From assembly GCA_009827225.1 (NCBI GenBank), contig WUAI01000017.1, positions 1 through 61,548 on the forward strand: a DNA stretch of 61,548 bases, read 5' to 3'. A model generated the notes under the pieces. That model was not told the origin of the DNA. It saw nothing but the letters and a program-made list of their open reading frames with translations, and ran no database searches. This stretch comes from Flavobacteriaceae bacterium (GTDB taxonomy: Bacteria > Bacteroidota > Bacteroidia > Flavobacteriales > Flavobacteriaceae). How positions within the stretch are numbered: the stretch's first letter is position 1; the number at the start of each line of letters is the position of its first letter. Positions 46,681 through 48,909 of the stretch are shown here, in pieces. Position numbers and translations under genes: made by a program.

Positions 46681-48909
<2,229 letters not shown>

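Follow-up and report, generated by a model that had tools for sequence, protein, structure and literature searches.

A lone in-frame TAA in an otherwise intact monomeric isocitrate dehydrogenase gene of a Flavobacteriaceae draft genome: a probable sequencing error or very recent mutation

The gene for monomeric (type III) isocitrate dehydrogenase (IDH), icd, in a Flavobacteriaceae draft genome is interrupted by one in-frame TAA that none of the relatives searched shares; the remainder of the gene is intact. It lies on contig C9, the whole of the stretch of DNA analyzed here (the window, 61,548 nucleotides), in an assembly of 3,250,883 bases in 80 contigs with a completeness of 99.28 and a contamination of 0.21. 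A conserved frame of 742 codons holding one stop, next to 49 other comparable window genes that are unbroken, is more than chance. We consider it very probable that the stop is a single-base nonsense change, confined to this assembly, in an otherwise intact and apparently single-copy icd. A base-call or assembly error stands at about an even chance, and a real null mutation too young for other decay, such as might become fixed in a strain whose food supplies glutamate, is possible but rather doubtful. These weights are judgments rather than computed values, with the remainder assigned to causes not considered, and an error and a very recent null are inseparable from sequence alone. Whichever the cause, the stop appears to be very recent or not biological. 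We read it as an error or a recent mutation, not as a novel type of gene, and consider programmed expression across the stop or a split gene improbable.

The icd frame spans 742 positions plus the terminal stop (Table 1). In a profile search of the whole genome with PF03971 (734 positions), it was returned as one match of 1301 bits running over positions 1-734 with one TAA inside. This stop is in frame with the ATG at 46681, and the sequence-only reading was therefore right that it splits a monomeric IDH gene, and right too that both halves fit the family: the 452 residues before the stop cover profile positions 1-447 and the codons after it cover 449-734, so that a single profile position is missing, and each half alone exceeds Pfam's 25-bit cut-off. 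The open stretch after the TAA had been given as 284 codons, which is the length counted from the ATG at 48055; it holds 289 (48040-48906). With TIGR00178 the halves cover positions 3-453 and 455-742 at 756.4 and 499 bits, neither reaching the equivalog cut-off of 950 bits, and no polypeptide of about 740 residues is encoded as written. Against chain 1itw_A, a type III monomeric IDH that we take to be the Azotobacter vinelandii enzyme, the halves align at residues 4-451 (E = 7.8e-189) and 453-737 (E = 9.7e-138), so the stop stands in place of one residue, with TAA as the codon for the equivalent of residue 452. Among named loci, those that match the post-stop part of the protein best come mostly from Flavobacteriaceae, many of them uncultured.

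Table 1. Features of the icd locus, in window coordinates
Feature	Position	Strand	Remarks
RNA candidate, ~330 nt, terminator-like 3' hairpin	about 46208-46545	+	conserved, strongly covarying
TATATTTG, fits flavobacterial -7 box TANNTTTG (presumed consensus)	46601..46608	+	80 nt before icd ATG
icd, monomeric (type III) isocitrate dehydrogenase frame, interrupted once; ATG at 46681, terminal TAA ending at 48909	46681..48909	+	PF03971 and TIGR00178 match both halves
5' open frame, 452 aa, ends at premature TAA	46681..48039	+	
Premature TAA, residue 453; equivalent to residue 452 of chain 1itw_A	48037..48039	+	
3' continuation, 289 codons plus terminal stop	48040..48909	+	
First in-frame ATG past the stop (Met459), nearest restart codon	48055..48057	+	sequence

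Within a draw of 149 genomes from the family, icd was found in 133 (its own genome included), and an internal stop was seen in its own copy only, the site being covered in 130 others. All eight other same-genus genomes examined carry the gene, and seven matches cover the site without a stop; the match in G153, of the same genus, ends before the site and was not counted. A draw from the class gave matches in 82 of 395 genomes (own included), 80 others covering the site in a stop-free match. Matches in G112 and G116 (family draw) and G335 (class draw) fall short of the site and were likewise not counted. With each genome handle taken once, the site is covered in 216 other genomes (130 + 12 + 74) and a stop stands there in none of them, whereas a stop subject to programmed readthrough would be conserved in relatives. 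The 80 named loci have a sense codon at the TAA position without exception. Among 124 distinct homologues the residue at the site is E (50), A (32), T (18), K (13), Q (8), N (2) or R (1), which marks the site as tolerant; the earlier description of it as normally charged or polar in the family was too narrow. The commonest codon is GAA (46 of 124), and GAA, one base away from TAA, is also found in the nearest relative, L037.

Interruptions of other kinds were seen in a few copies of the gene. In G041 and G146 it lies in two pieces on different contigs, broken elsewhere than at the TAA site. On a Mesonia sp. MAG contig with a coverage of about 6 (L063, 4354-4404), icd is split by a frame change near residues 241-255, a second apparent break of the gene in a low-coverage assembly. 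G221 holds a second, C-terminal icd-like fragment of 61 residues with a TAA inside (C4, 376625-376807), next to a full, stop-free icd in the same genome. The matches listed in open-licence PMC included no publication on an icd that is split or carries a nonsense codon in Flavobacteriaceae.

The remainder of the gene carries little sign of decay. In columns conserved at 98% or more across the 124 homologues, the window protein keeps 265 of 267 residues (151 of 153 upstream and 114 of 114 downstream of the stop), and no further stop or frameshift was seen, in line with the earlier statement that nothing else is damaged. The two departures are S361G and T404S, and a solved homologue, 4zda, also has G at the position of the former. 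On a leave-one-out basis these two departures compare with a median of 1 (maximum 10), and 95 of the 125 sequences have fewer. The count used 127 coding sequences (124 distinct) from 134 loci examined, leaving out four that did not fit the motif pattern and are presumably variants (L018, L042, L043 and L055), two truncated at contig ends (L056 and L073) and the frameshifted L063; in L018, L042, L043, L055 and L073 the alignment is in frame on both sides of the site. An earlier alignment pass used 123 sequences and dropped 11. Synonymous sites are saturated in all dN/dS comparisons of the window gene except that with L049 over the first half (w = 0.062), and against L037, whose protein is 87.7% identical to the window IDH, the synonymous differences reach pS values of 0.81 and 0.84; because of this saturation we relied on the conserved-column count together with a simulation. 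Under simulated neutral change, the share of runs with two or fewer hits was 42% at 0.005 substitutions per site, 5.5% at 0.010 and 0.7% at 0.015, which makes more than about 0.01 neutral substitutions per site on icd unlikely. Selection has presumably acted on the gene through almost the whole of its separate history.

Relative-rate comparisons with L037 over seven outgroups gave no significant excess of changes in the post-stop half (chi-square at most 0.60). In the pre-stop half the window has more changes than L037 with all seven outgroups, and chi-square exceeds 3.84 with three of them (5.16, 10.94 and 4.50). This excess is a hint that part of the gene may be evolving faster, and we count it against the gene being entirely normal; since the downstream half is spared, it does not resemble decay. 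Relaxed selection, extra stops and frameshifts, the marks of a decaying pseudogene, were thus not found, with the pre-stop excess against three of seven outgroups as the counterpoint. The promoter-like box ahead of icd is also kept, which counts for a young change or an error. A strain living with a defect and an assembly error had both been offered as explanations, and both stand, on the evidence of the undecayed gene, in a narrower form: the stop would be very recent or non-biological.

Should translation end at the TAA, the 452-residue product would lack the whole C-terminal part of domain I and, if the numbering of AbIDH2 (domain II at 135-563 in the available text of PMC5979607) carries over, about the last 110 residues of domain II. 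From these losses, the product should be inactive. A second IDH elsewhere in the genome had been suggested as cover for such a defect and was rejected: in this 99.28% complete draft, PF03971 has one match, the interrupted icd, and the single PF00180 match is LeuB, scoring 464.6 bits where the cut-off is 353.2. The glyoxylate bypass was rejected as well, as isocitrate lyase (PF00463) was not found in the genome by a search that was positive in 8 of 14 control genomes. With neither isocitrate lyase nor a second IDH found, a true null would need 2-oxoglutarate or glutamate, which the cell would obtain from outside. The steps adjoining IDH seem to be kept: an aconitase-family frame of 772 aa and an E1 protein of 924 aa, each free of internal stops, were taken by size as aconitase and 2-oxoglutarate dehydrogenase E1, respectively, and the second aconitase-family match is LeuC, beside LeuB.

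These data also bear on the idea that the stop is real and old, in a lineage that has long been without IDH and lives on outside glutamate or with LeuB as a stand-in. The loss of icd has a precedent in Flavobacteriia, as the available text of PMC3287516 describes Blattabacterium strain Pam without citrate synthase, aconitase and IDH, and notes that LeuB was once proposed to stand in for IDH. LeuB is present in the window genome, and the mild pre-stop excess of changes could be read in the same way. Even so, an old loss is extremely improbable, given a gene that is undecayed, above all after the stop, the retention of the aconitase-size frame and the large E1 protein, and a genome of free-living size (3.25 Mb).

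The read-through protein was modeled with AlphaFold2 from 17 sequences; the model has a mean pLDDT of 78.1, with the block 451-460 at 90, and places residue 453 in a turn between predicted strands 445-451 and 456-462. Judging from this model, any residue might serve at 453, which leaves room for readthrough. For a real TAA to be decoded by a near-cognate or suppressor tRNA often enough to give full-length IDH, the conserved frame on both sides of the stop and the variable site in a turn would be suitable ground. Against this, no TTA, CTA or TCA anticodon, and hence no suppressor tRNA, was seen among the 32 tRNAs read by ARAGORN of 33 found, a set that is incomplete (a contig end truncates one tRNA, and none was read for Trp, Ile or Ala-TGC). 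TAA is recognised by both release factors, which also counts against readthrough, and the stop is shared by no relative searched. Readthrough is likely common in bacteria according to the available text of Belinky et al. 2021 (PMC7918605), but the stop described there as leaky is TGA, not TAA. On balance we regard readthrough as improbable here.

The other way for the enzyme to survive a real TAA, put forward in the sequence-only reading, is the assembly of two polypeptides, residues 1-452 and 459-742, the latter from a restart at the ATG at 48055. This codon lies 15 nt after the stop, a distance that suits termination-reinitiation, the break falls in the modeled turn, and both parts are conserved. 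The restart methionine, however, is a conserved family residue rather than an acquired start: Met459 is the conserved Met of GDIWRMCQ, is invariant in 17 sequences, and sits inside predicted strand 456-462, so that initiation there removes GDIWR and opens the strand. No searched copy is split at this site, G041, G146 and L063 being broken elsewhere. From the AbIDH2 domain limits (PMC5979607, as far as its available text goes), the break should also fall inside domain II and not at its border; with Met459 within a strand, this leaves little structural support for two chains, and the second part does not begin at a structural border as a foldable unit. The arrangement is disfavored and, in our view, very improbable. 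A real TAA with IDH still active, by frequent readthrough at the tolerant turn or as two chains, is accordingly hardly to be expected; should it prove real and functional, it would serve to test the expression of a central enzyme across an ochre TAA in a free-living bacterium.

The choice between a sequencing error and a very recent null is one on which the quality of the assembly has some bearing. The window was compared with syntenic stretches of five same-genus genomes, in which 52 window ORFs have a homologue: the two icd parts, one antisense frame and 49 others, 47 of these reaching at least 90% coverage of a homologue. The two below 90%, a divergent P-domain protein (4847-8233) and the shorter copy of a tandem pair (17956-20559), are both open throughout, and none of the 49 is truncated, split or frameshifted with respect to same-genus homologues. 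Some other alignments of the window with relatives contain stops, which we ascribe to ORFs on the antisense strand or to listed ORFs of the relatives whose 5' ends extend too far, given that these genes show stop-free alignments to other relatives. Elsewhere in the genome, no internal stops were seen in 42 ABC-transporter and 14 aminotransferase matches, within the matched stretch, or in 2 aconitase-family and 7 E1 matches. Since no other breaks were seen, the assembly is not visibly error-rich, which mildly favors a real mutation over an error; assembly errors are not common, yet one in 3.25 Mb would escape such a sample.

Tandem related genes are found at two places in the window. The tandem pair on the reverse strand (17956-24187) encodes proteins of 867 and 1133 aa that carry fibronectin III and Por secretion-tail domains; in the shorter copy GEVED is not matched and there is a single fn3 stretch compared with two, and its frame is open. 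On the forward strand (49644-54576), a TonB-receptor-plug protein is followed by three tandem related proteins, the first of which (52012-52839) matches DUF4249.

Upstream of icd, the gap that follows rplS (46087-46680) is 87.7% identical over 530 bases to that of the nearest relative, G152, above the 75-76% DNA identity of icd in the same genome. An RNA candidate in this gap was aligned over 17 sequences, namely the window and 16 relatives (L037, L033, L035, L036, L040, L056, L049, L047, L065, L030, L038, L011, L059, L060, L120 and L067) chosen from 44 nhmmer hits, the other hits being second copies (L057 and L097), partial (for example L068 and L029) or weak matches to the terminator end. 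The common structure has 45 pairs with 95.2% of cells paired, and 23 pairs are changed on both sides. None of 500 shuffles was as high on any of five measures, and slid controls were 34-46% paired, a control in which the structure is favored by having been predicted on the same 17-sequence alignment. The rplS tail lies upstream of the candidate in 15 of the 17 loci; the L040 and L030 loci end too soon for rplS, and in the genome of L040 (G149) an rplS homologue is directly upstream. In both of these loci the icd start lies about 1 kb further on. A TANNTTTG box, which we take to be the flavobacterial -7 consensus, stands between the candidate and the icd ATG in 16 of the 17 loci, and its position behind the candidate suggests that the RNA is independent and not the leader of icd.

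Searches with Rfam 15 gave nothing at the gathering score in the window gap; two weak matches (E = 0.078 and 0.4) are at the rplS end, upstream of the candidate. In 12 relatives, eight of them in the RNA alignment, the only overlap was with a snoRNA family (E = 0.45, in L011); the L19-Flavobacteria leader was found in 9 of these 12 and Flavo-1 in 3, two of the latter over the gathering score. RNase P RNA is located elsewhere in the genome. No paper on an RNA between rplS and icd was found among the matches listed in open-licence PMC, and in the available part of PMC9723704 the terms rplS, icd and isocitrate each gave 0 hits. The element is thus a candidate for a new flavobacterial small RNA, and it is a more promising lead from this locus than the stop.

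An isolated stop in a conserved single-copy gene is a reason to go back to the reads, and the TAA alone is no ground for leaving the TCA cycle out of metabolic models of this genome. In-frame stops within bacterial genes are widespread, and many are short-lived, according to the available text of Belinky et al. 2021 (PMC7918605). The icd stop resembles the stops of that study as a lone stop in an otherwise conserved gene; it differs in being known from one assembly only. As written, the window genome is also, like Blattabacterium strain Pam, a flavobacterial genome without a working IDH. Yet strain Pam, as described in the available text of PMC3287516, is an endosymbiont from which three enzymes are absent, whereas here the change affects only a single icd codon, and the 3.25-Mb genome holds an aconitase-size frame.
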